Notes under the pieces: model-generated
The model's input: only the letters and a program-made list of their open reading frames with translations
Database searches by the model: none
What the model was told of the DNA's origin: nothing
Origin: a virus
DNA: 64,000 nucleotides
Strand: one strand, 5' to 3'
IMG/VR virus record: IMGVR_UViG_3300020448_000002
Span: 1-64,000 of that record
Shown: one piece after another, positions 13,354 to 54,351 of the stretch
Position numbering within the stretch: position 1 is the first letter of the stretch
Layout of the letters: each line of letters opens with the position of its first letter
Made by a program: the position numbers and the translations under genes

Positions 13354-15696
13354 ATGAAGCTAGTTGACGGTATACAAAATGAAAATTCATCAGGATTTGT
13401 CGGTAAGGACGGTTTCTTTTGGTGGGTAGGAGAAGTAGAAGATAACGAAGATCCAATGGAATTGGGTAGAGTTAAGGTACGTGTGCTTGGTTATTACACT
13501 AATCTACAAGGTGGAACCATAGCAGACCTTCCTACTCATGCTTTACCTTGGGCTACAGTATTACAACATACATCACAACCAGGTAATGATGGTCAAGGTG
13601 AGTCAACAGGACAATTACAGACTGGTGCTGTTGTTATGGGATTTTTCATGGATGGTGAAACTGCTCAAATGCCGATAGTTATTGGTGTTATGAGAGTTAA
13701 GAAGTCTGAAAATACTAAGACAACTTCAACACTTGCTTTTACAGATCAGTTACCAGAATGGGGTACAGCACCTAATTCATCTGCTATACATCCTGCAGAT
13801 AAAAATACTAACAAACCTTCAGCATTAAGACAGAGTGGACATAATAGTGTTGCATATCCAGGTCAAACTACTACAGAATCAGGAGGAGATGGATCTCCTA
13901 AAAATATTGGTGTAGATATACACGGTAGTTCATATAACCCTATTAAACCTTTAGATCCTTCACATCCATTTCCTACTGCTAATGGTATTGGTGGTCCTTG
14001 GAAGAGTTTAGAGTATAAGATGTCTTACATGGTAGAGGATTTGGCACATATGACCTCTAGTCTTGTTAAAATATCAGATGGCAAATATTTGGATATAGTT
14101 GTAGGTAAATACGTAACAACAAAAGACTTAACGATGAAAATAGATAATTTCTTGACAGTTATATACAGTCAAGTTATTTCTACTATGCGTCAAGCAACAT
14201 CTACACTAGCAGATACTTTAAAAGTAGATGCATTACAGTCAGACGCTACTGGTATACCATTTGCATCATATAATTCTATTCACGAAGCAGCAGAAACAGT
14301 TTTAAAGTCTTTATGTGTTATAGACGCTAATATTGACACTTATAAGAAAGAACCTTTAGATACAGTTGGTAAGTATATTGATACATGTTTAACTAATACT
14401 AAAACAAAGGAAGAACTAGTAAAACACACAGTTGATGAAGTTGTAAAGAGTATTGTTGATGAGTCTACTAAAATTATCAAGAATTTAAGTGATGTAGTTA
14501 CAACTGTAAAAGATAAAGTAAAATCTACTAATGGTTATAACATTATAACTGAATGGGAGACAGGAAGCGGTATATTTGAGTTAAGGTCAGATTTATTCAA
14601 TCAAACACATACAAACCTGACTGGTTTGATGAAGATATTACTTAAATTCCGTTCTAGTGAATGTAATAGAACTACTGATGGTAAAGACTTAATTGGTTGG
14701 TTCCCTCTATTTGGTTGTACTCGTTTAACTGGTAAAGATTTGGATGCAATCAATAAAATAAGAGGTGATGACTTATTTGGATCTATGTTTAAACAGGCAG
14801 ATCCAAATATGACTACTGCTACAAATTATATTAGTGGAGGTTATGAATTACATCTAGGGACACCAGGTCGTAAGGCAGATATTAGCAAGAAAGCAAATGG
14901 AACAACTCATACCTCTATTACCTTTAATAATGCACATCTCTATGAAAAACAGATAAGAGATCAATTAAGAAAAGCAGTTGATTATGATACATTGTCAGAC
15001 GAAGTTATAGAAGCAAAAGTTGTAGAATATGTTAATGAGGCAACTAATAATGAAGGTGATACAGGTGCTTTAGTAGCAGATCATATATCATACGCAGGAG
15101 TATTAACTCAAGAAGTTCATGGTGATGACTGTAAAATCGTAAATAAAGATTATGTTCGTAATATTGAAGGTGACTATCTACTAAAAATAACTGGTAATTG
15201 TCATATTGAAGTGGGAGGAGGATTTTACTTAGGTGCAGAGGGAGGAACAAGTAAACATGCTCTTAGATTTGGATCTGATGTTGATATGAATGTTGTAGGA
15301 TCTAAATTTGAACTACAAGGAACAGAATGTAGATTAGGATCAGTTTCAACTAAAATTACTGGTAGTATATTTGAAAACTCATCTTATCAACAAACTATGA
15401 GTGGTATGGAGATTACTATGTCAGCAGAGAACTCTATAGAAATGGTAACACCACACATACTACAGTTAATCAACATAGAGCAAAGTGAAACACCTAAGAA
15501 AGTTACTGGAATAAGGACTGTGATTAATGGTGGATATGAGACTATATTAAATCCATCAATACTAGAAAACTATAAAGTTAACCTATCATCTACCGCAGGG
15601 TACTACAATAATGCTATCATTAGTGGTAAATTTAGCGTTATTACACCCAACACAACCAGTTCAGAAACTGTCACAGGGACGTTGACCCTTCAATAA
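13354..15696 (+). CDS. 5: Baseplate hub spike protein gp5
   Basis: 780 residues against 575 in T4. The N-terminal ~120 residues form the gp5 OB-fold: GFFWWVGEVEDNEDPMELGR, VKVRVLGYYTN, LPWATVLQH and GAVVMGFFMDG..AQMPIVIGVM. A long helical middle follows. The C-terminal ~200 residues are beta-rich (NIEGDYLLKITGNCHIEVGG, ALRFGSDVDMNVVGSKFEL), as expected for a spike. I see no T4 lysozyme domain (no catalytic E with the Y.D..G..T.G.G pattern), so cell-wall digestion must come from elsewhere. Confidence 0.82.
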   Translation: MKLVDGIQNENSSGFVGKDGFFWWVGEVEDNEDPMELGRVKVRVLGYYTNLQGGTIADLPTHALPWATVLQHTSQPGNDGQGESTGQLQTGAVVMGFFMDGETAQMPIVIGVMRVKKSENTKTTSTLAFTDQLPEWGTAPNSSAIHPADKNTNKPSALRQSGHNSVAYPGQTTTESGGDGSPKNIGVDIHGSSYNPIKPLDPSHPFPTANGIGGPWKSLEYKMSYMVEDLAHMTSSLVKISDGKYLDIVVGKYVTTKDLTMKIDNFLTVIYSQVISTMRQATSTLADTLKVDALQSDATGIPFASYNSIHEAAETVLKSLCVIDANIDTYKKEPLDTVGKYIDTCLTNTKTKEELVKHTVDEVVKSIVDESTKIIKNLSDVVTTVKDKVKSTNGYNIITEWETGSGIFELRSDLFNQTHTNLTGLMKILLKFRSSECNRTTDGKDLIGWFPLFGCTRLTGKDLDAINKIRGDDLFGSMFKQADPNMTTATNYISGGYELHLGTPGRKADISKKANGTTHTSITFNNAHLYEKQIRDQLRKAVDYDTLSDEVIEAKVVEYVNEATNNEGDTGALVADHISYAGVLTQEVHGDDCKIVNKDYVRNIEGDYLLKITGNCHIEVGGGFYLGAEGGTSKHALRFGSDVDMNVVGSKFELQGTECRLGSVSTKITGSIFENSSYQQTMSGMEITMSAENSIEMVTPHILQLINIEQSETPKKVTGIRTVINGGYETILNPSILENYKVNLSSTAGYYNNAIISGKFSVITPNTTSSETVTGTLTLQ

Positions 15697-15732
15697 TCTT
15701 ATGGTATTATAGATATATCTACAGAGGTATCT

Positions 15733-15942
15733 ATGACTGACTATAAAGATTATGGAGATAATGAAATTTATCTCGCACATGTTTTTATTAACATGTCTAA
15801 GAGACAAATCAAACTTGTTTCTGAAGATGGTTACGAAGATACCGTAACTTGGAAGTTCGACAGAGAGGGTAGTGAAGGTTTTTCTGAAACTACATCTGCT
15901 ATGATCGAATGTATGGATGAAGATTTAATTACTATTTTTTAA
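15733..15942 (+). CDS. Small acidic hypothetical protein, 69 aa
   Basis: ATG 15733 with an AGAGG ribosome site. The product is beta-rich in pattern (RQIKLVSEDGYEDTVTWKFD) and ends SAMIECMDEDLITIF. It overlaps the next gene by one base (TAATG). It is the first of five coupled small genes between gp5 and the fibre genes. Function unknown. Confidence 0.7.
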   Translation: MTDYKDYGDNEIYLAHVFINMSKRQIKLVSEDGYEDTVTWKFDREGSEGFSETTSAMIECMDEDLITIF

Positions 15943-16256
15943 TGACTGATTTTCAAGAGATTACTGAAGAGGAAGCAAAAGAAAACTTTTCCTTCCTTTT
16001 GACTATGTGTGAAAGAAACAGAACTGTCTTTAAGATAAAACGTAAAGATGGTTCTATTGCATTATTATCACCTGTTAAACAGTCAGGACCTCCTGTTGAT
16101 CCAGAGGTTCTGCAAGTTGTTGAAGAATTCCGTAAAGGTTTTATCGAGAATGTAAATGACGACCCCAAATTGGCAGCATCATTCCAAAAAGAGGCTCAAG
16201 CGTCGATTGAAGCCGCAAGCACTACGACAGGCACAAAAGCGTCTGAAATTTCTTAA
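15942..16256 (+). CDS. Hypothetical protein, 104 aa
   Basis: Begins with an acidic helix (ITEEEAKENFSFLLTMCERN), then a short beta segment (TVFKIKRKDGSIALLSPVKQ), a proline hinge (GPPVDPEVL) and a helical Ala-rich tail. Translationally coupled to the previous gene. No family recognised. Confidence 0.7.
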   Translation: MTDFQEITEEEAKENFSFLLTMCERNRTVFKIKRKDGSIALLSPVKQSGPPVDPEVLQVVEEFRKGFIENVNDDPKLAASFQKEAQASIEAASTTTGTKASEIS

Positions 16257-16463: not shown

Positions 16464-16945
16464 TTGATGTAGTTGACGAATTTTTAGAAGATCATCTTCA
16501 TCATAGGATATTTGAGTATTGTAAAAATGCCAAATATCGTTATGGAGAGTGTGATGAATATGGTTTACCACCTGTAGGTATGGTATCTGATATAATTCCA
16601 GATGGTAATAAGAGTCCGTTTGATTTATTTGAAGATAGAATAGGAGGAGAATTTTACCCAAAACATCAAGGGTGTCCTTATAGAATGTACATAAATCTAT
16701 TCACACCTGGTGAAATTCCATTCTGGCACAAGGATGGTGAGCAAGGAACAACATTTATATATTATCCTAATATGCATTGGGAACCAAATATGCTAGGAGA
16801 GACTCAGTTTTTAATAGATGGTGAAATTACAGGCATTATTCCTAAACCTAACAGATTAATTGGATTTGATGCTAATATATCACATAGAGCAACTTCATTT
16901 AGAAGTGAGCATAGATTTTCTATAGCAATTAAGTATTATGAGTGA
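16460..16945 (+). CDS. 2OG-Fe(II) oxygenase, prolyl-4-hydroxylase type (no. 1)
   Basis: 161 residues with a full facial triad: H90-K-D92 in PFWHKDGEQG, distal H142 in NISHRATSF, and R152 in HRFSIAIKYY for the 2-oxoglutarate carboxylate. GETQF (113-117) is the usual strand between them. Such enzymes use Fe(II), O2 and 2-oxoglutarate to hydroxylate a protein or small molecule; the substrate is unknown. Overlaps both neighbours. Encoded with the virion genes rather than in the 27-36 kb oxygenase operon. Confidence 0.82.
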   Translation: MIDVVDEFLEDHLHHRIFEYCKNAKYRYGECDEYGLPPVGMVSDIIPDGNKSPFDLFEDRIGGEFYPKHQGCPYRMYINLFTPGEIPFWHKDGEQGTTFIYYPNMHWEPNMLGETQFLIDGEITGIIPKPNRLIGFDANISHRATSFRSEHRFSIAIKYYE

Positions 16946-38649: not shown

Positions 38650-39418
38650 TTGTATTACAGGGATGCAGAAACTAGATGAGAAATCAGTTGATGCAGTTGT
38701 AACATCCCCACCATACAACTTAAATATTAAATACAGTAAATACAACGATAAGAAACCAGTAGATCAATATCTATCATGGTTAGGAGACGTATTTGCTGAA
38801 TGTAAACGTGTACTTAAAGATGACGGTCATCTATTTGTTAACATGGGATATTCTAATGTTAATCCTACAATAGGTATAGATGTATGTTGTAAGTTAAGAG
38901 AGAATTATATACTACAGAATAATATTGCATGGATTAAAAGTGTTCATACTGATAAGACACATGGACATTTTAAACCTATCAATAGTAAGAGATTCTTATG
39001 CCCAACATGGGAACATCTATTTCATTTTACAAAAGATGGTAAGATAGAGATCGATAGATTATCAGTTGGAGTGAAGTATGAATACTATGAAGCAAACATT
39101 CGTGGTAATAATACTAAGGACAATAAACCTAACCTAAGAGACAAAGGTAACTCATGGTTTATACCATACGAAACTAGACAAAGTAAACTAGAGAAAGGTA
39201 ACCACCCCGCTATTTTTCCAGTTAAACTTGTAGAGGATTGTATTAAACTTACTGGTAAAAGTAGTGGTATTGTTTTAGACCCATTCATGGGAACTGGAAC
39301 TACAGGAGTAGCAGCAGTTAACTTAGGATGGGATTATATTGGATATGATATAGATGAAGACTATGTTAAGTATTCTAAACAAAGATTAGAAGGGGGATTG
39401 AAATCATTATTAAAATGA
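38633..39418 (+). CDS. Beta-class DNA methyltransferase (N4-cytosine or N6-adenine)
   Basis: 261 residues. Motif IV VDAVVTSPPYNLN (TSPPY at 24-28) comes before motif I LDPFMGTGTTG (216-225) and WDYIGYDIDEDYV, the order of beta-class amino-methyltransferases. HVFHFTKDG and GNHPAIFPVKLVEDCI are further family blocks. It transfers a methyl group from S-adenosylmethionine to DNA. Target specificity cannot be read. Overlaps the nuclease-like gene upstream and a 29-codon gene downstream (ATGA). Confidence 0.88.
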   Translation: MLYLDDCITGMQKLDEKSVDAVVTSPPYNLNIKYSKYNDKKPVDQYLSWLGDVFAECKRVLKDDGHLFVNMGYSNVNPTIGIDVCCKLRENYILQNNIAWIKSVHTDKTHGHFKPINSKRFLCPTWEHLFHFTKDGKIEIDRLSVGVKYEYYEANIRGNNTKDNKPNLRDKGNSWFIPYETRQSKLEKGNHPAIFPVKLVEDCIKLTGKSSGIVLDPFMGTGTTGVAAVNLGWDYIGYDIDEDYVKYSKQRLEGGLKSLLK

Positions 39419-43084: not shown

Positions 43085-44332
43085 ATGTTCTTATTGAAAA
43101 AGCATCAAGATTATGCATACATGAAGATGCTAGACAATAAAAAAGGACAAGTGATTGTGCCTACTGGTGGTGGTAAAACATACATCATGATTGCGGATGC
43201 TATTAGAAATAACTATCAGCAGTATCAGAAATCTGATAATATTAATGTTGTGGTAGCACCTCGTATATTATTAGCACAACAGTTATGCAATGATTTTACA
43301 GATCATATTGAAGCATTTGATGATATTATTCATGTTCACTCAGGAGATACGGAGTATTACAGCACAACTTCCGCAGAAGACTTAAAGTTATGGTATTTAA
43401 CATCACAAAACATATCAAATAGAATAATATTTACTACTTATCATTCATTAAACCGCATCGTTGAGAGTGGCATCCCTATTAATACGGTATATTTTGATGA
43501 AGCACATAACTCATGTGGTAAGAAGTTTTTTGAAGCAGTAAAATCAGTATCTAATATATCAAATAGATGCTATTTCTTTACAGCAACACCTAGGCAAGGA
43601 AGAGGTCAGACTATTGAGCGTGGTATGAATAATAGTGATGTTTTTGGTCAAGTGATTGCTAATGTTGATGCTAAAGAGTTAATAGATGCAGGTATTATAT
43701 TACCACCTAAAGTAATACCATATGATACTAACAGGAAAAGAAACAAAGTCAATGCTCATGAAGTTGATGCTAAGAACTTAAAAGATATTCTAGAGGATAC
43801 AGTAGAGGATGATTCAAAAGTATTAGTGGCAGCACCTAGCACAAGAATATTATGGAATATGCTCACTAAAACTGATATACTTGACTGGTTCAAAAAACAG
43901 AACTATGGAGTTATGCATATTACATCTAAGCATGGTGCATACGTTGATGGTAAGAAAGTCCGCAGGGATGTATTCTTTAATACTCTTAATGAGTGGGGTA
44001 AAAGTGCTAAGAAATTTGTTGTGTTTCATTATAGTATATTATCTGAAGGTATCAATGTAGCAGGATTAACTCATACAGTATTATTAAGGAATTTACCTGT
44101 TATTGAAATGGCACAAACAATAGGTAGAGTAATTAGAGTGCATCCTGATGATAGAAAGTCAGTTGAAGATGGTATTATACCAGTAGCACAATTCTCACTA
44201 TATCGCAAGGGATATGGTAGAGTAACAGTTCCCTTAAGTGGTAAGTATGGAGAGAAGATTGCTAAAAGACTTGAGTCAGTAGTTAATCAAATCTTTATAG
44301 AAGGAATACCACCTCTAGCGTGGACATCATAG
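43085..44332 (+). CDS. Superfamily 2 DNA helicase / restriction ResIII-type ATPase
   Basis: 415 residues. Walker A VPTGGGKT (25-32), motif Ia VVVAPRILLAQQL, Walker B FDEAH (137-141), motif III TATPR (166-170), motif IV VLVAAPSTR, motif V LSEGINVAGLTHTVLLRN and motif VI MAQTIGRVIRVH. The set is complete, so it is an active SF2 ATPase. It resembles UvsW- or ResIII-type DNA translocases that remodel branched DNA; a separate nuclease domain is absent. It has its own promoter and follows the methyltransferase block. Confidence 0.85.
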   Translation: MFLLKKHQDYAYMKMLDNKKGQVIVPTGGGKTYIMIADAIRNNYQQYQKSDNINVVVAPRILLAQQLCNDFTDHIEAFDDIIHVHSGDTEYYSTTSAEDLKLWYLTSQNISNRIIFTTYHSLNRIVESGIPINTVYFDEAHNSCGKKFFEAVKSVSNISNRCYFFTATPRQGRGQTIERGMNNSDVFGQVIANVDAKELIDAGIILPPKVIPYDTNRKRNKVNAHEVDAKNLKDILEDTVEDDSKVLVAAPSTRILWNMLTKTDILDWFKKQNYGVMHITSKHGAYVDGKKVRRDVFFNTLNEWGKSAKKFVVFHYSILSEGINVAGLTHTVLLRNLPVIEMAQTIGRVIRVHPDDRKSVEDGIIPVAQFSLYRKGYGRVTVPLSGKYGEKIAKRLESVVNQIFIEGIPPLAWTS

Positions 44333-44345
44333 GACAGTTCAACAA

Positions 44346-44389
44346 AGTGGCACATCGTACTACCATTATGGTATCAAATACAGTATTAT
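44346..44389 (+). promoter_or_regulatory. AGTGGCACA-box promoter, module 1
   Basis: AGTGGCACA (44346-44354), 29 bases, TATTAT (44384-44389). A TACCAT-T-ATGGTA dyad at 44361-44373 lies in the spacer. The box is preceded by CAGTTCAACAA as in module 3. No -35 match. The fixed phase with five other modules supports it. Confidence 0.6.
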
Positions 44390-44413
44390 AATAATATGAA
44401 CAACAAAAGGCAC

Positions 44414-44638
44414 ATGATTCACTCAATGCACTTCGGAAGAGTATTCTGGTTAAACCTTGATAATGACCTTATGTCAGCACCTTGGTTAAAAGATGGCACA
44501 GTTTTAGATGGCACATTTGGAACTGAAGATCAATCTGATTATGTAAGTGAGTGGACTGACCTCGAAGGTCTTAATATGGATGCACTTTTAAACATTCACA
44601 AAGATTTGATTATCGCATCACTAGGAGATCAAAAATGA
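44414..44638 (+). CDS. Hypothetical protein, 74 aa (start reassigned)
   Basis: An ATG at 44396 would lie only 6 bases after the -10 box. AACAAAAGG (44401-44409) fits the ribosome site of ATG 44414, as in the sister leaders, so I start at MIHSMHFGRVFWLNLDNDLM. Also visible: WTDLEGLNMDALLNIHKDLI. Its end is ATGA-coupled to the next gene. Function unknown. Confidence 0.6.
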   Translation: MIHSMHFGRVFWLNLDNDLMSAPWLKDGTVLDGTFGTEDQSDYVSEWTDLEGLNMDALLNIHKDLIIASLGDQK

Positions 44639-44784
44639 ACCAGTCTTATACTAAAGACATTCAAGTCAATGTCACATTTGATGAAAAATATCAATTTGAC
44701 AAACTTTATGACATTTTGAGAGATATGGATTTTCCACTCACAAATAAACAACATAGTGTATTTGAAAAAATCTTATTAGGATAA
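44635..44784 (+). CDS. Small hypothetical protein, 49 aa
   Basis: ATGA overlap before and TAATG overlap after. MNQSYTKDIQVNVTFDEKYQ then FDKLYDILRDMDFPLTNKQH. Beta hairpin plus helix. Function unknown. Confidence 0.55.
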   Translation: MNQSYTKDIQVNVTFDEKYQFDKLYDILRDMDFPLTNKQHSVFEKILLG

Positions 44785-44999
44785 TGAAAACAGCAGTATT
44801 TCAAGTAAGGATTGAAGCAACACCCGATGCAGAAATCAATCCATTTCATTTAGCAGAAGAGATACAGGCATATCTCAATGCTCATGTATGTATGGTCAAT
44901 GAGACTACTGATACATACGAGGATGTTAGAGTAACAGGTTACAAATTTGATTACGATAACTTCACACCTACCCAATTTGATTACGATCAGGAGTTTTAA
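44784..44999 (+). CDS. Small hypothetical protein, 71 aa
   Basis: MKTAVFQVRIEATPDAEINP, FHLAEEIQAYLNAHVCMVNE and TYEDVRVTGYKFDYDNF. A beta-alpha-beta pattern. Directly followed by the next gene without a gap. Function unknown. Confidence 0.6.
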   Translation: MKTAVFQVRIEATPDAEINPFHLAEEIQAYLNAHVCMVNETTDTYEDVRVTGYKFDYDNFTPTQFDYDQEF

Positions 45000-45233
45000 A
45001 TGGAAAAGCACATCAATCTATTTCAAGTAATACCAGAGGATGAGCATTCACATATTTCTAACAAGATATGGGAAGCACTTGATAGAGCAGGAATTGTATG
45101 CTCTCAGGATGCTGAACTATCAATCAAGATATATGATGATGAGATAGTAATTAGAAAAAGTGACCCATTTGGACTTGAGTCAGTTACTGATGATGATTAT
45201 GACTCAGAAGGCGAATTAATCTATGAAGCATAG
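45000..45233 (+). CDS. Small acidic hypothetical protein, 77 aa
   Basis: MEKHINLFQVIPEDEHSHIS, NKIWEALDRAGIVCSQDAEL, SIKIYDDEIVIRKSDPFGLE. A GGAG-like site (GATCAGGAG) lies in the preceding gene. Ends before promoter module 2. Confidence 0.6.
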   Translation: MEKHINLFQVIPEDEHSHISNKIWEALDRAGIVCSQDAELSIKIYDDEIVIRKSDPFGLESVTDDDYDSEGELIYEA

Positions 45234-45245
45234 GACAGTACAATA

Positions 45246-45289
45246 TGTGTCACACATTACCACGCATAGGTTACAAAATACCTTATACT
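45246..45289 (+). promoter_or_regulatory. AGTGGCACA-box promoter, module 2
   Basis: Variant box TGTGTCACA (45246-45254), 29 bases, TATACT (45284-45289). TGTGT-C-ACACA is a dyad here, and CAGTACAATA precedes the box as in the other copies. Gene start 23 bases after. Confidence 0.6.
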
Positions 45290-45311
45290 AAAGACATCAA
45301 GAGAATTTCTA

Positions 45312-45476
45312 ATGAACACTCTAACAACAAAAGAACTAAAAGTCATCAAACTGATGGAAGAAGTAATTGACACTCTTTCAAGGTGCAAAGACTTATCTGA
45401 CCCCGCATTTGATATGTATTATGTCATGCAGGATGCAGTAAACAAAGAAGTTATCTATCCAATGGAGAATTTCTAA
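45312..45476 (+). CDS. Small helical hypothetical protein, 54 aa
   Basis: ATG 45312 to TAA 45474-45476. MNTLTTKELKVIKLMEEVID, then SRCKDLSDPAFDMYYVMQDA. Two helices. The next gene begins at the following base. Function unknown. Confidence 0.55.
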   Translation: MNTLTTKELKVIKLMEEVIDTLSRCKDLSDPAFDMYYVMQDAVNKEVIYPMENF

Positions 45477-45644
45477 ATGCCAATTATTAAGTTATCAATC
45501 GAAGAGCATCAATCACTCACTAGATTTTTAAGTCATCCTAAAGCAATGAAATACAGGAGTGACTTATACGATACAGATACTTTTGATTCAATGGAAGATA
45601 AAGTATATGATGCAGTAAACAACTTAACAGTAGAGGATTTTTAA
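45477..45644 (+). CDS. Small hypothetical protein, 55 aa
   Basis: Follows the previous stop directly and abuts the next ATG. MPIIKLSIEEHQSLTRFLSH, then YDTDTFDSMEDKVYDAVNNL. The end VEDF plus TAAATG matches the short -DF/-EF ends of its neighbours (MENF, QEF), which place GGAG-like sites before the next start. Confidence 0.55.
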   Translation: MPIIKLSIEEHQSLTRFLSHPKAMKYRSDLYDTDTFDSMEDKVYDAVNNLTVEDF

Positions 45645-45899
45645 ATGAACTTAAATGACAAGTTGAAAAAAGAGAGAACTGGACTAACCGCACAACAGTA
45701 TAGTGACTTGCAGGAGTTATTTGTTGATCGTTATGTTGACAATATGACTACTAAAGACTTAGTAGAATATGTTTATAACGATATGATGCAGTATGTTGAG
45801 AATCAACCAGAAAAGGAATTCTTGGATGACTGTAAGGACTACTGGGATGATGGATTCCAGGAAATTATTGAAGAAATTAAGGAGATCGCACCCGAATGA
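45645..45899 (+). CDS. Hypothetical acidic protein, 84 aa
   Basis: MNLNDKLKKERTGLTAQQYS, DLQELFVDRYVDNMTTKDLV, then NDMMQYVENQPEKEFLDDCK. Helical, with FVDRYVDNMTTKDLVEYV in the middle. ATGA-coupled to the next gene. Function unknown. Confidence 0.6.
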   Translation: MNLNDKLKKERTGLTAQQYSDLQELFVDRYVDNMTTKDLVEYVYNDMMQYVENQPEKEFLDDCKDYWDDGFQEIIEEIKEIAPE

Positions 45900-46111
45900 A
45901 AACAATTAAAATGAGTGATGAGCAATTTGCACAACTTAAAGAGTATGTTGTTGACAGTTGCGAAGACATTATGGATAGGTCACTAGAGTGGGCAGATTCA
46001 GATCAGAGCAATGATTTTATTGATTTTCATGAAATATTATTTGAGTTTAGATCAATTTTAGAGGAAGCGGATAGATGGACTACTGTTAAATTATGGGAAG
46101 AAGGAGAGTAA
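45896..46111 (+). CDS. Hypothetical acidic protein, 71 aa
   Basis: MKTIKMSDEQFAQLKEYVVD, DIMDRSLEWADSDQSNDFID, FHEILFEFRSILEEADRW. Helical and acidic. Starts with an ATGA overlap and ends in a GAAGGAGA purine run that serves as the next RBS. Confidence 0.6.
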   Translation: MKTIKMSDEQFAQLKEYVVDSCEDIMDRSLEWADSDQSNDFIDFHEILFEFRSILEEADRWTTVKLWEEGE

Positions 46112-46113
46112 AA

Positions 46114-46239
46114 ATGAACTATCAAGAAATTAAAGCAATGAGTTCAAAAGAACTTAAAGATTATCTTAAGCAAGGTTTCGCTGATGTTGAAACTGAAGAT
46201 ATGATTTCATATGAATTATATGAAGTGAGAGGAGAGTAG
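46114..46239 (+). CDS. Very small protein, 41 aa
   Basis: GAAGGAGA ribosome site, ATG 46114 to TAG 46237-46239. MNYQEIKAMSSKELKDYLKQ, then ADVETEDMISYELYEVRGE. Function unknown. Confidence 0.5.
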   Translation: MNYQEIKAMSSKELKDYLKQGFADVETEDMISYELYEVRGE

Positions 46240-46243
46240 CATC

Positions 46244-46396
46244 ATGAGACACTTAGTTCCATTTACAGGAGACCAACTTACAATAATTGAAGATGCTCTC
46301 AAATATTCTCGAAAATATGCCGATGCCAAATATTGCTCGGATGTTTATGAAATCTTACAAGAAATTAAAAACAACACTTCAATAGGTAGATCATGA
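46244..46396 (+). CDS. Very small protein, 50 aa
   Basis: AGGAGAG ribosome site in the preceding gene; ATGA overlap with the next. MRHLVPFTGDQLTIIEDALK, YSRKYADAKYCSDVYEILQE. Helical. Function unknown. Confidence 0.5.
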   Translation: MRHLVPFTGDQLTIIEDALKYSRKYADAKYCSDVYEILQEIKNNTSIGRS

Positions 46397-46566
46397 GTCA
46401 ACACAAAGTCAATTTATCAGATAAAGAAATTACTAGAGTATGTGATCTCTTAGATGAGCAACATGACCTAGATAAGAAATTATCTAACAAGTTAAACAAC
46501 ATATTGATTAAGCATTTAGCATTAATTGATAATAATAGAGCAAAACAACCAATCGGAGAGTGGTAA
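46393..46566 (+). CDS. Very small helical protein, 57 aa
   Basis: MSQHKVNLSDKEITRVCDLL, DEQHDLDKKLSNKLNNILIK then HLALIDNNRAKQPIGEW. Probably a helical pair. Ends before promoter module 3. Confidence 0.5.
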   Translation: MSQHKVNLSDKEITRVCDLLDEQHDLDKKLSNKLNNILIKHLALIDNNRAKQPIGEW

Positions 46567-46582
46567 TGTACCAGTTAAACAA

Positions 46583-46627
46583 AGTGGCACAATGGGTATT
46601 GTGTTTCGCAGTAGTCTCGACTATACT
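46583..46627 (+). promoter_or_regulatory. AGTGGCACA-box promoter, module 3
   Basis: AGTGGCACA (46583-46591), 30 bases, TATACT (46622-46627). CACAAT-gggt-ATTGTG (46588-46603) is a dyad. The leader GACTATACTTAATTCATAAG matches modules 4 to 6. Confidence 0.65.
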
Positions 46628-46651
46628 TAATTCATAAGTTACAAATCAAAC

Positions 46652-47065
46652 ATGACTGTTAAATCTCTCAACTTTCAAGCAGGTAGTTCAGCAAAGTCAC
46701 ACTATAAAAAACTTGATACTTATCAGAAATTAGTAGTTAATGCTATTACAACTTATGGTGGTGGTAGTTGGAAAAACAACGTATCAGTCCATCATAAGCA
46801 TGACCAGAGTCAATTCTCAAATATACTAATTGGTTCAGAAGTAGTTGCTAAGGTAGTATATGAGACCGCACATGATGATCTTTCTATAGAGGACTATAGA
46901 GATATTCATATTCATAAGTGTATGTTAGCGAATGTATCCTATATTGCTTTTGGTAAGGATACTGACGATTATAGAGATTCATATCAAGTTGTAAGATATA
47001 GAAATATGTTAGCAAAAATGGGATTCACTATAATAAATGTAGCAAACAAGTGCATCCAGTATTAA
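46652..47065 (+). CDS. Hypothetical protein, 137 aa
   Basis: SLNFQAGSSAKSHYKKLDTY, QKLVVNAITTYGGGSWKNNV, SVHHKHDQSQFSNILIGSEV and a C-terminal RYRNMLAKMGFTIINVANKC. An alpha/beta fold; no family recognised. Own promoter of the AGTGGCACA class. Confidence 0.6.
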   Translation: MTVKSLNFQAGSSAKSHYKKLDTYQKLVVNAITTYGGGSWKNNVSVHHKHDQSQFSNILIGSEVVAKVVYETAHDDLSIEDYRDIHIHKCMLANVSYIAFGKDTDDYRDSYQVVRYRNMLAKMGFTIINVANKCIQY

Positions 47066-47078
47066 GTCAAGTGATCTT

Positions 47079-47136
47079 GTGCCACTTTTATTAGTGGCAC
47101 ATAGTTTTACCATTGCCATTAAAACTGGACTATACT
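47079..47136 (+). promoter_or_regulatory. AGTGGCACA-box promoter, module 4
   Basis: Perfect dyad GTGCCACT-tttatt-AGTGGCAC (47079-47100), next base A completes the box; 29 bases; TATACT (47131-47136). No -35 match in the spacer. The leader ATTACATAAGCAAC recurs in module 5. Confidence 0.7.
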
Positions 47137-47161
47137 TATTACATAAGCAACTAAAGGACTT

Positions 47162-47308
47162 ATGACTAACGATCAAAGATACAAAGCATTCCTTAGATGG
47201 GATGCAATGATTCAAAGACAACAGGCAAGAAAAGCAGGAAAAACACTTTCTCAAATTCATGCAGATAAGTGGTTCGATTCAAATTTCAAATTCATAGGAG
47301 ACAACTAA
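47162..47308 (+). CDS. Very small basic protein, 48 aa
   Basis: ATG 47162 after an AAAGGA ribosome site. MTNDQRYKAFLRWDAMIQRQ then QARKAGKTLSQIHADKWFDS. Basic helix, possibly nucleic-acid binding. Function unknown. Confidence 0.55.
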   Translation: MTNDQRYKAFLRWDAMIQRQQARKAGKTLSQIHADKWFDSNFKFIGDN

Positions 47309-47309
47309 A

Positions 47310-47561
47310 ATGCACAACTTTAAAGAATTTCTTGATTATTGCGAATCATTCTATAACCCTAGTCATCCTGACGTTTTATATCCTATCGATGGATTAACTA
47401 GGCAAGAGTTAGCACTTGCAACTCTAAACTATTTGGACTTATGTGCGACTAGTGAGAACATCACATGGGGAGACGGAGATTCACTAGATCGTGAGAGAGT
47501 CAGAGATTTTGTAATACAGAGGAGAGCAACAGAGCAAACAGCAACAAAATTAGGATTTTAA
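47310..47561 (+). CDS. Small hypothetical protein, 83 aa
   Basis: MHNFKEFLDYCESFYNPSHP, DGLTRQELALATLNYLDLCA and DGDSLDRERVRDFVIQRRAT. Helical; a GGAG ribosome site lies in the end of the preceding gene. Function unknown. Confidence 0.6.
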   Translation: MHNFKEFLDYCESFYNPSHPDVLYPIDGLTRQELALATLNYLDLCATSENITWGDGDSLDRERVRDFVIQRRATEQTATKLGF

Positions 47562-47563
47562 AA

Positions 47564-47761
47564 ATGTTCATAGTTACACATATTGATGTTCATGAATCAC
47601 TTGACGAGGACATTCAGTTTAAAATTGATAATGGTCTCGGATTATGGTCATCTAAAGAGCATGAAATTTGGGAAGATGTAGAAAAATACATTCAACCCTA
47701 TACTCTCAAAAATGTAGAGTATGAAAAGAATAAACCACATTATTTGACCTCTTTCATGTAA
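47564..47761 (+). CDS. Small acidic hypothetical protein, 65 aa
   Basis: MFIVTHIDVHESLDEDIQFK, then LWSSKEHEIWEDVEKYIQPY. Beta strand followed by helices. Ends just before promoter module 5. Function unknown. Confidence 0.6.
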   Translation: MFIVTHIDVHESLDEDIQFKIDNGLGLWSSKEHEIWEDVEKYIQPYTLKNVEYEKNKPHYLTSFM

Positions 47762-47775
47762 ATGTCAAGTGGTAT

Positions 47776-47834
47776 TGTGACAGTAAAAGTACTGTCACAC
47801 AGTATCACTATTATCCCTTAAAATCAACTATACT
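47776..47834 (+). promoter_or_regulatory. AGTGGCACA-box promoter, module 5
   Basis: Perfect ten-pair dyad TGTGACAGTA-aaag-TACTGTCACA (47776-47799); 29 bases; TATACT (47829-47834); then the shared leader TTATTACATAAGCAACAAAG. The box reads ACTGTCACA, so the dyad arms covary while the spacing is kept. Confidence 0.7.
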
Positions 47835-47858
47835 TATTACATAAGCAACAAAGGAATT

Positions 47859-48329
47859 ATGACTAATCCAACTATCGAAGCACTAGTCCCAAATTGGACA
47901 GCAGAGTATTGCGAAGCATTAAGACTAAACTATTTTAACTATCACGTTAACCAGTTAAAAGTTAACTCAGAGCGTTTTTCAAAACCTAGTGGAAGTGTAT
48001 TAGGTCATCGTCCAGATTTATCAGAATATGCGAAGTCTCAACTAGCAGAGATCGAAAACGGAACAGCGAAGTTAATGAAATTCAGAGCGATAGAAGGTAA
48101 GAAGTATTACAAAGTAGTTCAGCAAGAATGGGATGAAGATAGACAAGAATACAGAGACAGATCAGTAAATAGTTTTGTTGACAAGAAAACAGGCGAAGTA
48201 TATAAAGCATCAAGTTGGAAAGCACCCGCAAAGGGAGTCCGTTTTGATATGAGAATTATTACTCAAAGGAGATTAATGCATAACCCTAACTATGTTGACT
48301 GGGCAAGTGGTCATCTTTATATACGATAG
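47859..48329 (+). CDS. Conserved phage protein of unknown function, 156 aa
   Basis: Residues ~108-150 (SFVDKKTGEVYKASSWKAPA, KGVRFDMRI) match a pattern I recognise from many phage proteins: a KKTGEVYKPA.WK.PAK..RYN motif. The N-terminal half is helical (AEYCEALRLNYFNYHVNQLK), followed by YYKVVQQEWDEDRQEYRDRS. Function not known. Driven by module 5. Confidence 0.65.
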   Translation: MTNPTIEALVPNWTAEYCEALRLNYFNYHVNQLKVNSERFSKPSGSVLGHRPDLSEYAKSQLAEIENGTAKLMKFRAIEGKKYYKVVQQEWDEDRQEYRDRSVNSFVDKKTGEVYKASSWKAPAKGVRFDMRIITQRRLMHNPNYVDWASGHLYIR

Positions 48330-48338
48330 GAGGACAGA

Positions 48339-48494
48339 ATGGTTAAAATTGAAACTAAACATCATATCGTAGAATTTCACACTAAGAAGGATTCCAGGAA
48401 ATTCTTAAAGAAAATCTACAAAAAAGGGATAACTCTCGACTATTATCTTTGGGAGTTCGATCTTACCACAGAATTATACGAAATAGGGGAGTAG
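48339..48494 (+). CDS. Very small protein, 51 aa
   Basis: GATAGGAGGA ribosome site 9 bases before ATG 48339, the best-matched in this region. MVKIETKHHIVEFHTKKDSR then KFLKKIYKKGITLDYYLWEF. Basic first half, acidic end. Function unknown. Confidence 0.55.
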   Translation: MVKIETKHHIVEFHTKKDSRKFLKKIYKKGITLDYYLWEFDLTTELYEIGE

Positions 48495-48553
48495 TGTGCC
48501 AGTACTTTTAGTGGCACAAAACTCTTTACAAGTATAGCAAAATCGACTATACT
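48495..48553 (+). promoter_or_regulatory. AGTGGCACA-box promoter, module 6
   Basis: TGTGCCA ... TGGCACA dyad (48495-48501 and 48512-48518); box AGTGGCACA (48510-48518); 29 bases; TATACT (48548-48553); leader TTATAATATAAGCAACAGAG. Confidence 0.7.
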
Positions 48554-48578
48554 TATAATATAAGCAACAGAGAACTAA

Positions 48579-48809
48579 ATGTTATCAACAGCAACTTACA
48601 CCACACCAGTTAACAGAATCAAGCAGAAAGTCCTATTTGACTTTAACCTTGATGCACTTTCAAGCATATGTCACGACTGGGAAGATTTTGTTATCGAAAT
48701 CTCAGAGTGGGGAATCTACAAGTTAGCAGGAGTTGACTTTGATACTTTAACTACTGAAGACATTGCTAGACTAGACCAGTTTATTAAAAATCAAAACGGA
48801 GGAGAATAA
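48579..48809 (+). CDS. Small hypothetical protein, 76 aa
   Basis: MLSTATYTTPVNRIKQKVLF, NLDALSSICHDWEDFVIEIS then LTTEDIARLDQFIKNQNGGE. Ends in a GGAGGAG run that acts as the next RBS. Function unknown. Confidence 0.6.
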   Translation: MLSTATYTTPVNRIKQKVLFDFNLDALSSICHDWEDFVIEISEWGIYKLAGVDFDTLTTEDIARLDQFIKNQNGGE

Positions 48810-48811
48810 AA

Positions 48812-48994
48812 ATGAGTTGCATTCAAAACGAGACAATCCTAGAAAATCTTTATGATGAAGTATGGGAAGAGTATAGGATTAAAAACAATCTTACTTCAGA
48901 TCAACTTGATGCTATCGATCAAAATTCTGAATTGGGTTATCTACCAGAAATTGCAGATGAAGCACAGAGACGTTTTGAGGACTTAATTCAATGA
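48812..48994 (+). CDS. Small acidic hypothetical protein, 60 aa
   Basis: MSCIQNETILENLYDEVWEE, YRIKNNLTSDQLDAIDQNSE. Acidic helices; ATGA overlap with the next gene. Function unknown. Confidence 0.55.
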   Translation: MSCIQNETILENLYDEVWEEYRIKNNLTSDQLDAIDQNSELGYLPEIADEAQRRFEDLIQ

Positions 48995-49125
48995 ATCGAG
49001 ACCTCTATCAAGAGATCGTAAAAGTTTACGAATCTACTGACGAAATCGAATCGACTGTAGCATTTGAATTTGGACTTAAAAACGATCTTTATTATTCACT
49101 TTTTCATTCCTATCAGGAGGACTAA
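48991..49125 (+). CDS. Very small acidic protein, 44 aa
   Basis: MNRDLYQEIVKVYESTDEIE, then AFEFGLKNDLYYSLFHSYQE. ATGA-coupled to the preceding gene and ends in CAGGAGG, the RBS of the next. Function unknown. Confidence 0.5.
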   Translation: MNRDLYQEIVKVYESTDEIESTVAFEFGLKNDLYYSLFHSYQED

Positions 49126-49130
49126 CCAAA

Positions 49131-49295
49131 ATGACCAGAGCAGAATATGAGTTATTATACTCAGCATTTAAAAGTTATAGACCATTTATGACGGATGCAG
49201 AGGAAGTGATGAGCGAGAAAATTCTTGATGACATTTTCTATCCATCCTTTGATGCACTTAAAAATGTATCTGAACCAGAGTTGCCAGTAGTATGA
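49131..49295 (+). CDS. Very small protein, 54 aa
   Basis: MTRAEYELLYSAFKSYRPFM then AEEVMSEKILDDIFYPSFDA. ATGA overlap with the next gene. Function unknown. Confidence 0.5.
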   Translation: MTRAEYELLYSAFKSYRPFMTDAEEVMSEKILDDIFYPSFDALKNVSEPELPVV

Positions 49296-49507
49296 AAAAC
49301 TACGATAAGAAAAACTCAAAAGAGAGAACATACAAGTGTTTTGAGCAAATCGGTATAGGAGACACCGTACGATATTTTAAGGAATATGGGCAAATCATCC
49401 TACGTCTAGACGAAACTAGGCAAGTTTATCTCACTAACGATAAACACTATATGCTTCCAATTAACTGGAAGAAAACTAAAGTAATTTCACTTATTAATGA
49501 GGATTAA
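49292..49507 (+). CDS. Small basic hypothetical protein, 71 aa
   Basis: MKNYDKKNSKERTYKCFEQI, GIGDTVRYFKEYGQIILRLD then HYMLPINWKKTKVISL. A beta-rich small domain of SH3-like appearance. Function unknown. Confidence 0.55.
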   Translation: MKNYDKKNSKERTYKCFEQIGIGDTVRYFKEYGQIILRLDETRQVYLTNDKHYMLPINWKKTKVISLINED

Positions 49508-49512
49508 CTAAA

Positions 49513-49740
49513 ATGTGTCAACTTGAATTTATGACTGAAGTCTTGAGTGACTATTGCACAGTTGAAAAATTGCCCTTTATGTCAGCATCCGATATTTTGG
49601 TTATGTATCGCAGTATTCTTACAGAATCTCAAAGGGAGTGGTTACGCAATTATATTGAAATTTGGGATGTAATACAAGAGAATGAAAACCAATCTTATGG
49701 AAGTGTGGATGCTCGCCCGATTTTTTTAACCTCTATATAA
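49513..49740 (+). CDS. Small hypothetical protein, 75 aa
   Basis: MCQLEFMTEVLSDYCTVEKL, MSASDILVMYRSILTESQRE then WLRNYIEIWDVIQ. Helical. Function unknown. Confidence 0.55.
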   Translation: MCQLEFMTEVLSDYCTVEKLPFMSASDILVMYRSILTESQREWLRNYIEIWDVIQENENQSYGSVDARPIFLTSI

Positions 49741-49743
49741 TGT

Positions 49744-49983
49744 ATGTCAACACATTTTCAATTAATACCTTGGACAGAATTATGTCACGCTATTGACTTG
49801 ATACGATATGAAGAGGACAATAAAGCAACTATGACTTATGCACAGTTACAAAAGTTCCTGGAAACCCTAACACCAGAGCAATTAAATAACGAGGTAGTCA
49901 TATATGATAAGGACGTTGAGGACTATTGCAAAGCGGATGCAAATTTAATAATCAAGAATGACAAGATTTATATAGGGATATAA
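49744..49983 (+). CDS. Small hypothetical protein, 79 aa
   Basis: MSTHFQLIPWTELCHAIDLI, MTYAQLQKFLETLTPEQLNN and EVVIYDKDVEDYCKADANLI. The C-terminal part (a beta strand with KDVEDY then LIIKNDKIYIGI) looks like a small metal-or-ligand-binding beta unit. Function unknown. Confidence 0.55.
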   Translation: MSTHFQLIPWTELCHAIDLIRYEEDNKATMTYAQLQKFLETLTPEQLNNEVVIYDKDVEDYCKADANLIIKNDKIYIGI

Positions 49984-49985
49984 AA

Positions 49986-50225
49986 ATGACTCTCGACCAT
50001 TACAATTTCATGAAAGGGGAATTAATCGAAGTCAATAACGATATAGGGAGAATAAATTTTATATGCGAAGAATACATAACAGTAACAACAAAGCATGAAA
50101 AGAACGATACATATAAAAAAGGATATAAAGAGACTAACGTATTAGTAAGCAAGGCATATTGGAATCAAATTAAATTTATTACTAGAGAGAAACTTATCAG
50201 AGTAACGAATGAACAGAAACAATAA
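49986..50225 (+). CDS. Small basic beta-rich protein, 79 aa
   Basis: MTLDHYNFMKGELIEVNNDI, GRINFICEEYITVTTKHEKN and LVSKAYWNQIKFITREKLIR. All-beta SH3-like appearance (a loop with GRINFICEEYITV). Overlaps the next gene by 17 bases. Function unknown. Confidence 0.55.
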   Translation: MTLDHYNFMKGELIEVNNDIGRINFICEEYITVTTKHEKNDTYKKGYKETNVLVSKAYWNQIKFITREKLIRVTNEQKQ

Positions 50226-50385
50226 ACCAATACTATTGAAAACGTCCGCAGATAAAATACGATACACTTTTACCGTACTCAAGTATATCATAATAGACAT
50301 ATGGGAGTCAATCAGAATAAACAAATATTATCGAAAATCATTAGAGGATGATTCAATATCGAAACCAAAAGAGGATATTAATTAA
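50209..50385 (+). CDS. Small basic protein, 58 aa
   Basis: MNRNNKPILLKTSADKIRYT then VLKYIIIDIWESIRINKYYR. A hydrophobic central helix flanked by basic residues suggests membrane association. Ends at 50385; the next 171 bases are non-coding. Confidence 0.5.
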   Translation: MNRNNKPILLKTSADKIRYTFTVLKYIIIDIWESIRINKYYRKSLEDDSISKPKEDIN

Positions 50386-50497
50386 TATTAAAATAAATTA
50401 GGTAGTGTTGTTGTTATCGTTATTAATATGCGATCTTAATACGGTCTTAGCGTGTAAACATACAACAGTCAAGCATCTCTCACAAATCTTAACAAAC

Positions 50498-50526
50498 TTG
50501 ACAGGCACAGAGATTTATGCCATAAT
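50498..50526 (+). promoter_or_regulatory. Strong sigma70 promoter
   Basis: TTGACA (50498-50503), 17 bases, CATAAT (50521-50526). A consensus -35 box, 30 bases before ATG 50557. Confidence 0.7.
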
Positions 50527-50556
50527 GGAGTATATTAGAAGTATGCCCAGTTGCCT

Positions 50557-50733
50557 ATGATTTTACCAGGAAAGTTTAAAACACTTGCCGATGGTTATCC
50601 AAATTTAAAAACTACTGAACTAATCGAATATTTTCAATTTCTTTTAGATACGGAACAAGTCACGGAGGAGACTCGGAGACATGTAGATTATTTTTTAATG
50701 GAAGGATTTTTGTACTATGTGCCAGTTGCATAA
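50557..50733 (+). CDS. Small hypothetical protein, 58 aa
   Basis: I choose ATG 50557 (MILPGKFKTLADGYPNLKTT); a TTG at 50551 would add two residues. Then ELIEYFQFLLDTEQVTEETR and HVDYFLMEGFLYYVPVA. Two helices. Served by the TTGACA promoter. Confidence 0.6.
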   Translation: MILPGKFKTLADGYPNLKTTELIEYFQFLLDTEQVTEETRRHVDYFLMEGFLYYVPVA

Positions 50734-50776
50734 GTGTCCACTATAGGGTGCACAGTAGGTAACTAAGGCTTATAAT
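50733..50776 (+). promoter_or_regulatory. Possible seventh AGTGGCACA-type promoter
   Basis: AGTG-TC-CACT dyad (50733-50742), 29 bases after AGTGTCCAC, then TATAAT (50771-50776). The box matches 6 of 9 bases but the spacing is the same and CCAGTT precedes it as in module 3. Confidence 0.4.
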
Positions 50777-53603: not shown

Positions 53604-53942
53604 GTGACTTATCAGGCATTACCTCAAGGATTGTACATTAAAGACTCTCCTGTAGCAGGGCAAGGCATATTTACTAGTAAATTCCTTGAAGTTGGCACAG
53701 AATTAGGTATGTCTCACATAGTTATCGCAGATGAGATCATTAGAACTCCTCTTGGAGGGTTTATTAACCATAATGATTTTCCAAACTGTGAAAAATTATG
53801 TCCAAGGGTGGAAAAAATGTATAATTTGACCAAAACCCATTATAAGTCAATAAAGAAATATTATGTAAAGGTTATTAAACCTATTGGTGAAGGTGAAGAA
53901 TTATTTTTGAATTACACTTTCTATAAGGTAAATGGCAATTAA
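53604..53942 (+). CDS. Small SET-domain protein (putative lysine methyltransferase)
   Basis: 112 residues, GTG start. The order of SET motifs is intact: AGQGIFTSKFLEVGTELG (18-35, motif I for S-adenosylmethionine), then GGFINHNDFPNCEKL (51-65, the NH...PN motif) and KVIKPIGEGEELFLNYTFY (89-107, GEEL..NY). It is a minimal domain without pre- or post-SET regions. SET enzymes methylate lysines of proteins; the target could be a virion, ribosomal or host protein. It overlaps gp25 by 11 bases and is co-expressed with baseplate genes. Confidence 0.8.
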   Translation: MTYQALPQGLYIKDSPVAGQGIFTSKFLEVGTELGMSHIVIADEIIRTPLGGFINHNDFPNCEKLCPRVEKMYNLTKTHYKSIKKYYVKVIKPIGEGEELFLNYTFYKVNGN

Positions 53943-54351
53943 AGAGGTAAGAGGTAATAAAGATAACCTTTCACGTGGTTTTAAAGACGTTGGTATGAGT
54001 TTTTTACTCAATGTCTTTACAAAAGATGCTGCGGTGGTGAAGAATGAGAATGCCATTAAACAATCTATCAAGAATTTAGTACTAACACAAAAGGGGGAAA
54101 AGTTGTTTCAACCTGAGCTAGGGTCTGGTGTATATGAATTACTCTTTGAACCTATGGATCCGTTTACAGCAGATTCTATTAGGGATGAGATAATAAATAC
54201 TCTTGGACAGTATGAACCTCGAATTAGTATTCTAGAGGTAGATGTGGAACCTAATGAAGACACTAACACGTTTGATGTTACGGTTGAATATAGAATTGTA
54301 GGACAACCTATAGTGGAAACAGTCAACTTCATCTTGCAGAGACCCGAATAA
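53932..54351 (+). CDS. 25: Baseplate wedge protein gp25
   Basis: 139 residues, T4 gp25 length (132). DVGMSFLLNVFTKDAAVVKN, AIKQSIKNLVLTQKGEKLFQ, PELGSGVYELLFEPMDPF and ILEVDVEPNEDTNTFDVTVE are the gp25/GpW signature. It links wedge to sheath as the sheath initiator. Its stop overlaps the gp6 start (TAATG). Confidence 0.93.
   Translation: MAIKEVRGNKDNLSRGFKDVGMSFLLNVFTKDAAVVKNENAIKQSIKNLVLTQKGEKLFQPELGSGVYELLFEPMDPFTADSIRDEIINTLGQYEPRISILEVDVEPNEDTNTFDVTVEYRIVGQPIVETVNFILQRPE

Follow-up and report, generated by a model that had tools for sequence, protein, structure and literature searches.

A novel regulatory element for the early genes of Syn9 was reportedly described by Doron et al. in 2016 (ISME J 10:1437, doi 10.1038/ismej.2015.210), with comparable findings for P-TIM40, and is said to be conserved in T4-like cyanophages. 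Here, the first 64 kb (positions 1 to 64,000; hereafter the window, i.e., the whole stretch of DNA that was analysed) of the 126,269-base IMG/VR virus record IMGVR_UViG_3300020448_000002, whose relatives are T4-like cyanomyoviruses, were examined for a class of promoters in which a dyadic box stands 29 base pairs (bp) before a -10 hexamer in the absence of a conserved -35 box. Comparison with related phages and with host genomes suggests, with a probability of roughly three in four, that this element is bound by the host GntR regulator PlmA (PMM1637 in Prochlorococcus MED4), which would activate these promoters.

Several reports provide a basis for this comparison. The cyanomyoviruses are described in the relevant part of PMC2984593 as being without the T4 genes alt, modA, modB, motA and asi. 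On the host side, passages of PMC6778093 (citing Lambrecht et al. 2018, DNA Res 25:489) report that PMM1637, the GntR protein of MED4, binds to those promoters of yfr2 that bear the CGRE1 motif, and attribute the induction of Yfr2 to this protein. The regulator is named PlmA in the relevant part of PMC7344720, where an interaction with PII-PipX is also reported, and an interaction with thioredoxin is mentioned in the corresponding part of PMC5923263. A link between PlmA and phage promoters was not found in the literature searched; Lambrecht et al. 2018 may contain it.

The promoter element and its distribution

In full, the element consists of TGTGMCAGTT, five variable bases, A(G/C)TGKCACA, 29 little-conserved bases, TATAAT, an A-rich leader such as aagtacataacaaacaaagg and the start codon (TGTGMCAGTT-N5-A(G/C)TGKCACA-N29-TATAAT), and it was detected in all eight cyanomyovirus records that were scanned whole. 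The paired inverted half-sites span 24 bp, and the gap from them to the -10 is 29 bp (28-31). Within the window, the nine-base box alone is not enriched (17 matches at up to one mismatch against a shuffle mean of 12.1, with 12 of 100 shuffles reaching 17). The spaced pattern [AT][GC]TG[GT]CACA-N29/30-TAT[AT][ACT]T has eight matches on the + strand and none on the - strand, compared with a mean of 0.08 and a maximum of 1 in 100 Markov-1 sequences. Seven of the eight are promoters given below, the eighth, at 16722 inside an open reading frame (ORF), may be due to chance, and the promoter at 50733 escapes the pattern.

The fixed geometry was also found in viral metagenomes. Each IMG/VR scan was a sample of 120 stretches, and the figures given hold among the matches listed. 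When the gap between box and -10 was left free (15 to 45) in blind scans and distinct sites were counted, a gap of 29 occurred from AGTGGCACA to TATAAT in 43 of 127 sites and from AGTGTCACA to TATAAT in 49 of 132, compared with 2 of 117 for a reversed box, the profile of which was flat; gaps of 28-31 numbered 77, 75 and 15, respectively. With both the arm gap and the -10 gap free, the arms were exactly 10 bp apart in 170 of 176 sites, and the -10 gap across the 176 was 29 in 100, 30 in 33 and 28 in 13. No spacer position in the IMG/VR sites exceeds 0.35 bits, and the sole strongly conserved box is the one 29 nucleotides (nt) from the -10. Upstream of relatives of the gene at 47310-47561, the box was accompanied by a -10-like hexamer (gap 15-45) at 34 of 77 loci, with 20 matches at gap 29 and 8 at gap 30.

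A scan of related cyanophages had been proposed in the original prediction, and the spaced motif does recur there, with a gap peak of 29 and absence from T4. Matches to AGTGKCACAN28-31TANNNT were found in 13 of 16 reference records, with one match over all records for a backwards control; among the 16, there were none in T4 or in the podoviruses P-GSP1 and P-SSP7. A position model was trained on 557 sites that exclude the loci of the reference genomes, near copies of those phages in IMG/VR not being screened out. At a score of at least 18, it identified 7 sites in this phage, 8 in Syn9, 15 in P-TIM40, 26 in P-SSM2, 12 in P-HM2, 10 in Syn19, 19 in S-SSM7, 11 in P-SSM4 and 0 in T4, with random-sequence means of 0 to 0.6 (0 for Syn9 and 0.4 for P-TIM40). 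Many of the reference-genome sites are in small-gene regions, and others precede, for example, a peptidase-annotated gene and cobS in S-SSM7. In the spacers of P-TIM40, CACTACCG/A is repeated at a fixed place; ACTACC was considered as a conserved second element on account of these spacers and was rejected, as it is not general in IMG/VR spacers.

The lack of a -35 box, another part of the original prediction, holds broadly, since sigma70-like matches in the region number 37 against 37.3 in shuffles, with the reservation that weak -35-like hexamers are present at 47107, 48525 and 50749.

Nature of the dyad

The arms of the dyad do not behave as the two sides of an RNA stem. Across 144 sites, the outer varying arm pair shows no significant co-variation (Fisher p 0.12), the next inner pair runs counter to pairing (p 2e-6, which is only a guide because the sites are related), and complementary pairs between the arms are never above 10 of 12. 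The simultaneous change of both arms that had been noticed in module 5 is real there as a single case and does not extend to a rule over the 144 sites. Moreover, of 370 distinct dyads, 41 are flanked to the left and right by -10-like hexamers at a distance of 28-31 nt, where about 6 would be expected by chance as estimated from other gaps; this set includes loci picked by pattern, which biases its gap counts in that direction, and some of the dyads are closely related to one another. Since the arms show no stem-like co-variation and -10s are found to either side of some dyads, these data argue for a putative protein-binding DNA site. Among the same 370 dyads, two minor peaks of -10-like hexamers, one at a gap of 40 (11 cases) and the other at 19 (8 cases), lie roughly one turn of the helix from the main peak. 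One dyad of P-HM2 (about 39292-39315) separates two oppositely oriented genes and is flanked on both sides by -10-like hexamers.

The spacers have features of their own, with a mean folding energy of -5.56 kcal/mol against -3.08 in shuffles and a terminator-like hairpin with a T-rich tail in 67 of 557 (10.2 in shuffles). Examples are found at 53930-53973 in P-SSM2 (W05) and 125057-125100 in P-HM2 (W06). The presence of such hairpins inside the spacer implies that the end of one operon can be packed within the promoter of the next.

Similarity to host yfr2 promoters

Host loci of the small RNA yfr2 were gathered with the Rfam family Cyano-1 (RF01701), which we take to be Yfr2, and 29 of 30 loci in a smaller set and 69 of 70 in a larger one were used after L797, whose sequence is incomplete, was dropped. 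In the smaller set, the half-site was present upstream at up to one mismatch in 15 of 29 loci, compared with 3 of 522 control windows. In the larger set, TGTGMCAGTT at up to one mismatch was found upstream of 37 of 69 loci, and 34 of these sites precede the start of the RNA by 58-64 nt. Of these 34 usually placed sites, 26 are followed by a -10-like hexamer whose first base is 52-55 nt past that of the half-site. The phage counterpart of this distance is 24 plus the gap of 28-31, with a peak at 53; in the 557 training sites, a distance of 52-55 follows from the gaps allowed, and the unbiased evidence on the gap comes from the free-gap IMG/VR scans. The left half-site, its strand and its distance to the -10 are identical between the phage element and yfr2 promoters. 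Three low-GC yfr2 loci (guanine-cytosine (GC) content 0.27-0.28) have a distance of 54, which is also preferred by P-HM2 (gap 30 in 8 of 12 sites), a phage isolated on MED4; this shared spacing is suggestive, the cases being few.

A host regulator as the candidate binder

No GntR domain was found in any of 14 cyanophage records. In host chromosomes, the strict phage composite was detected only in likely phage sequence and as scattered single matches (15 stretches), and the search was therefore turned to the bare dyad, which is present in 9 of the 201 Cyanobiaceae genomes searched, with no match for the control. When 70 phage dyads were made into a sequence-only model, it matched 24 of 151 host genomes at E <=0.5. 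In four low-GC, Prochlorococcus-like genomes (GC 0.33), the dyad match precedes a GntR-family gene by about 35 nt, and the product of the gene matches PF00392 (E 1.7e-13). This gene was found in 184 of 201 Cyanobiaceae genomes, and its product was the sole PF00392 protein in each of the 14 host genomes checked. Upstream of it, GMCA-N10-TGKCA occurs at 36 of 48 loci compared with 0 of 737 control windows, and a gap of 10 dominates (40 matches, against 5 for the next best gap). Two of the 50 loci gathered for this count had no anchor and were dropped, and the Cyanobiaceae genome samples behind the different counts overlap.

Proposed mechanism and alternative explanations

Based on these comparisons, we infer binding by PlmA, activation and an early timing of the phage genes. 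In the proposed mechanism, host RNA polymerase would meet a good -10 without a -35, and the missing contact would be supplied by a host activator. PlmA, present in the cell beforehand, would occupy about -66 to -42 as a dimer and hold the polymerase, the centre of the element lying about 54 bp before the start if the start is taken as about 7 nt after the -10. Every small-gene operon would have its own copy of the element, so that these operons would start together, and the reported contacts of PlmA with PII-PipX and thioredoxin imply that early transcription could track nitrogen and redox state. In this way, the phage would probably use a switch of its host to set its infection programme going. 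A more specific proposal, for which the odds appear even, is that T4-like cyanophages run their early operons from repeated, remodelled operators of PlmA, a hallmark regulator of cyanobacteria with links to nitrogen/carbon (PII-PipX) and redox (thioredoxin) state, the single or everted site of the host having become an inverted dyad that can serve both directions. Transcription of the early phage genes would in that case depend on the nutrient and light status of the host via one protein present in nearly every picocyanobacterium.

Several points weigh against the proposed mechanism. The early expression of the downstream genes relies for its timing on what the abstract of Doron et al. 2016 reportedly states. 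In 18 of 37 yfr2 sites, a partner half-site lies upstream in everted orientation, and none was found in the rest, whereas the phage partner is inverted and downstream. No half-site was found at 32 of 69 yfr2 loci (hosts have several yfr2 copies), and 8 of 34 sites have no -10-like hexamer at 52-55. The phage dyad model reaches only 24 of 151 host genomes, and several of its matches, among the part listed of 28 host loci, lie in coding sequence. In addition, the passages of PMC6778093 on this regulator place CGRE1 nowhere else in MED4 and describe PMM1637 as no autoregulator, with which an autoregulatory reading of the dyads upstream of the gntR gene fits poorly; those dyads come from genomes other than MED4 and need not serve autoregulation.

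The original prediction considered a new activator plausible. The same promoter class could indeed be read by a phage protein, either injected with the virion or immediate-early, or by another host factor, and this would be in line with the near absence of the strict composite from host chromosomes, with the half-site arrangement that differs from that of yfr2 and with the fact that most early phage proteins are without a known function. Such a binder is nevertheless unlikely, given that half-site, strand and -10 distance match host yfr2 promoters and that a phage factor would need the same specificity as the host factor; PlmA was judged the likelier candidate. What stands of the earlier interpretation is a genuine promoter class with a fixed geometry, a dyadic activator-type site, no conserved -35 and conservation in related phages.

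GntR regulators are usually repressors, which lends some support to the idea that the dyad is an operator for the repression of early promoters by PlmA or by a phage protein, for instance to shut them off; a host sensor could in this way delay early genes under poor conditions. The missing conserved -35, a site at about -66 to -42, off the core promoter, and the fixed distance to the -10 point to activation instead, as does the PMM1637-mediated induction of Yfr2 in the passage of PMC6778093 noted above, and repression therefore appears improbable. It is still harder to believe that the dyads are RNA stem-loops that belong to the upstream genes, as terminators or as sites of processing, and lie near promoters by accident. 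The dyad at 47078-47101 was classed as terminator-like, and terminator-like hairpins are in excess in the spacers. On the other hand, the spacing is fixed at 29, complementarity between the arms is not kept, some dyads are flanked by -10s on both sides and the terminator-like hairpin, when present, is in the spacer, apart from the dyad; an RNA hairpin or terminator was rejected on these grounds.

If PlmA does activate these promoters, it would be a candidate answer to the question of which factor reads the early promoters of cyanomyoviruses, which lack the T4 genes named above. A regulator with so wide an occurrence in Cyanobiaceae (184 of 201 genomes) would suit a broad host range, and its contacts with PII-PipX and thioredoxin would link phage gene expression to nitrogen and light. 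Moreover, the motif model can be used to annotate small-gene operons in viral metagenomes.

Promoters of the window

Eight sites with a dyadic box and a -10 hexamer were identified, all on the + strand, seven at 44330-50776 and one at 15652-15710. The box followed by a -10 at 29 bases (once 30) was thus confirmed at seven promoters in the range considered originally and at one more outside it, and the GTG/CAC dyads were likewise confirmed, the dyad being the usual form in relatives too. The gap from right half-site to -10 is 29 in the window promoters, except for a gap of 30 at 46583, and the left half-site begins 53 bases before the -10 in six sites and 54 and 55 bases before it in the others. 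Scores are those of the position model trained on the 557 other sites.

The promoter outside this range (promoter 0), which was absent from the original list, shares bases with the end of ORF 13354-15696. It consists of the left half-site ACAACCAGTT (15652-15661), the right half-site ACTGTCACA (15667-15675) and, after 29 bases, TATTAT (15705-15710), with a score of 31.2, and precedes ORF 15733-15942. The stretch behind it (15733-16256) holds a small gene of unknown function (PHROG 662), followed by a Phd-like antitoxin gene at 15942-16256 (PHROG 375). Promoter 1 (score 29.4) has TAGGACAGTT at 44330-44339, AGTGGCACA at 44346-44354 and, 29 bases on, TATTAT at 44384-44389. The ORF behind it is taken to begin at 44396, where an ATG stands six bases past the -10; a start at 44414, where there is another ATG in frame, is more likely. 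Promoter 2, before ORF 45312, scores 35.8 and comprises TAGGACAGTA (45231-45240), TGTGTCACA (45246-45254), a 29-base spacer and TATACT (45284-45289). The weakest of the eight by score (18.0) is promoter 3 (46567-46627), in which TGTACCAGTT (46567-46576) and AGTGGCACA (46583-46591) are followed, after 30 bases, by TATACT (46622-46627) before ORF 46652; here and in promoter 1, the arm separation is one base wider than usual.

The next three promoters all have a spacer of 29 bases and TATACT as the -10. Promoter 4 (score 48.7), with TGTGCCACTT at 47078-47087, AGTGGCACA at 47093-47101 and the -10 at 47131-47136, lies before ORFs 47162 and 47310. Promoter 5 (score 47.4), with TGTGACAGTA at 47776-47785, ACTGTCACA at 47791-47799 and the -10 at 47829-47834, lies before ORF 47859, and promoter 6 (score 49.6), with TGTGCCAGTA at 48495-48504, AGTGGCACA at 48510-48518 and the -10 at 48548-48553, before ORF 48579. 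Promoter 7 scores 37.0 and has the left half-site TGTGCCAGTT (50718-50727), a degenerate right arm, AGTGTCCAC (50733-50741), and, after 29 bases, TATAAT (50771-50776), before ORF 50807. Similar leaders, as had been noted, are found for the sites at 47093, 47791 and 48510, and relatives commonly have a related leader that is rich in A. Those genes behind the window promoters that were tested belong to PHROGs of unknown function or have no PHROG match, and an Rfam search of the window at gathering thresholds gave no match.

Dyads and phage-like promoters in bacterial sequences

Upstream of the rRNA operon, genomes of a high-GC host clade have a block with a dyad of this kind and, 32 nt on, TACCTT or a similar hexamer (L682-L690, nine Cyanobiaceae genomes; also L644:6455 and L645:6299). 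The block is present in 9 of 400 genomes, and 16S adjoins it in the three loci whose contig reaches far enough. In each of the nine, the GntR/PlmA protein is diverged (E 1e-91 to 1e-98, compared with about 1e-150 or better in most others), and one of them (G066) has an exact TGTGACAGTT just upstream of the diverged GntR gene. Mimicry of rRNA operons was rejected as a general explanation, the best upstream box score being 11.7 in 30 other 16S loci against 26-29 in the high-GC clade. In two hosts of this clade (L692 and L718), a phage-like dyad precedes an ATPase-like gene, possibly a mobile or defence gene.

Among the 15 stretches with the strict composite, L538 and L551 belong to a 188-kb contig assigned to Nonlabens xiamenensis (NZ_RMVE01000006.1), which shows 98-99% identity to P-TIM40 over the 16 kb compared; as judged from this sequence identity, the contig is cyanophage DNA in a bacterial assembly. 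Three stretches (L540, L544 and L550) from the Flavobacteriales metagenome-assembled genome TMED113 carry cyanophage-type promoters, and L544, not L540 and L550, is partly similar to P-TIM40; the promoters suggest that these contigs are probably mis-binned phage sequence. The other ten, including L548, are single sites in unrelated taxa and were taken for chance matches.

Comparison with known systems

Both phages of the 2016 study carry the present element before small genes (8 sites in Syn9 and 15 in P-TIM40), and the element of that study, reportedly conserved in T4-like cyanophages, has its parallel in the 13 of 16 records found here, the others being T4 and two podoviruses. Since Syn9 and P-TIM40 carry the element, the class, which had originally been proposed as new, is probably the early element of Doron et al. 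2016, with this phage as a new carrier, an assignment that goes by what the abstract of that study reportedly states. The CRP consensus is TGTGA-N6-TCACA. A CRP-type site was rejected, because the half-sites are 6 bp apart in CRP and 14 bp separate TGTGM from KCACA here (170 of 176 sites).

The likeness to T4 early and MotA middle promoters is the use of host polymerase via the -10, the middle promoters swapping the -35 for an activator box. By the consensus forms in PMC1524935, T4 early promoters have a GTTTAC -35 and the distance of MotA boxes from the -10 is 11-13 nt, whereas the phage element is without a GTTTAC-like -35 and its box is dyadic, 29 nt away and absent from T4. A T4 early -35 was rejected with no spacer position above 0.35 bits, and a MotA box with none 11-13 nt before the -10 and the only strongly conserved box at 29 nt. 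The likeness to the CGRE1 site of PMM1637/PlmA comprises the TGTGMCAGTT half-site, its strand and the 52-55 nt to the -10 as found in the present analysis upstream of yfr2. In CGRE1/yfr2, the partner is everted and upstream or absent, whereas in the phages it is inverted and downstream, and the element is used in tandem before many operons. Because the half-site arrangement differs in this way, the phage element would be one that works like a PlmA site and is not filed as CGRE1.

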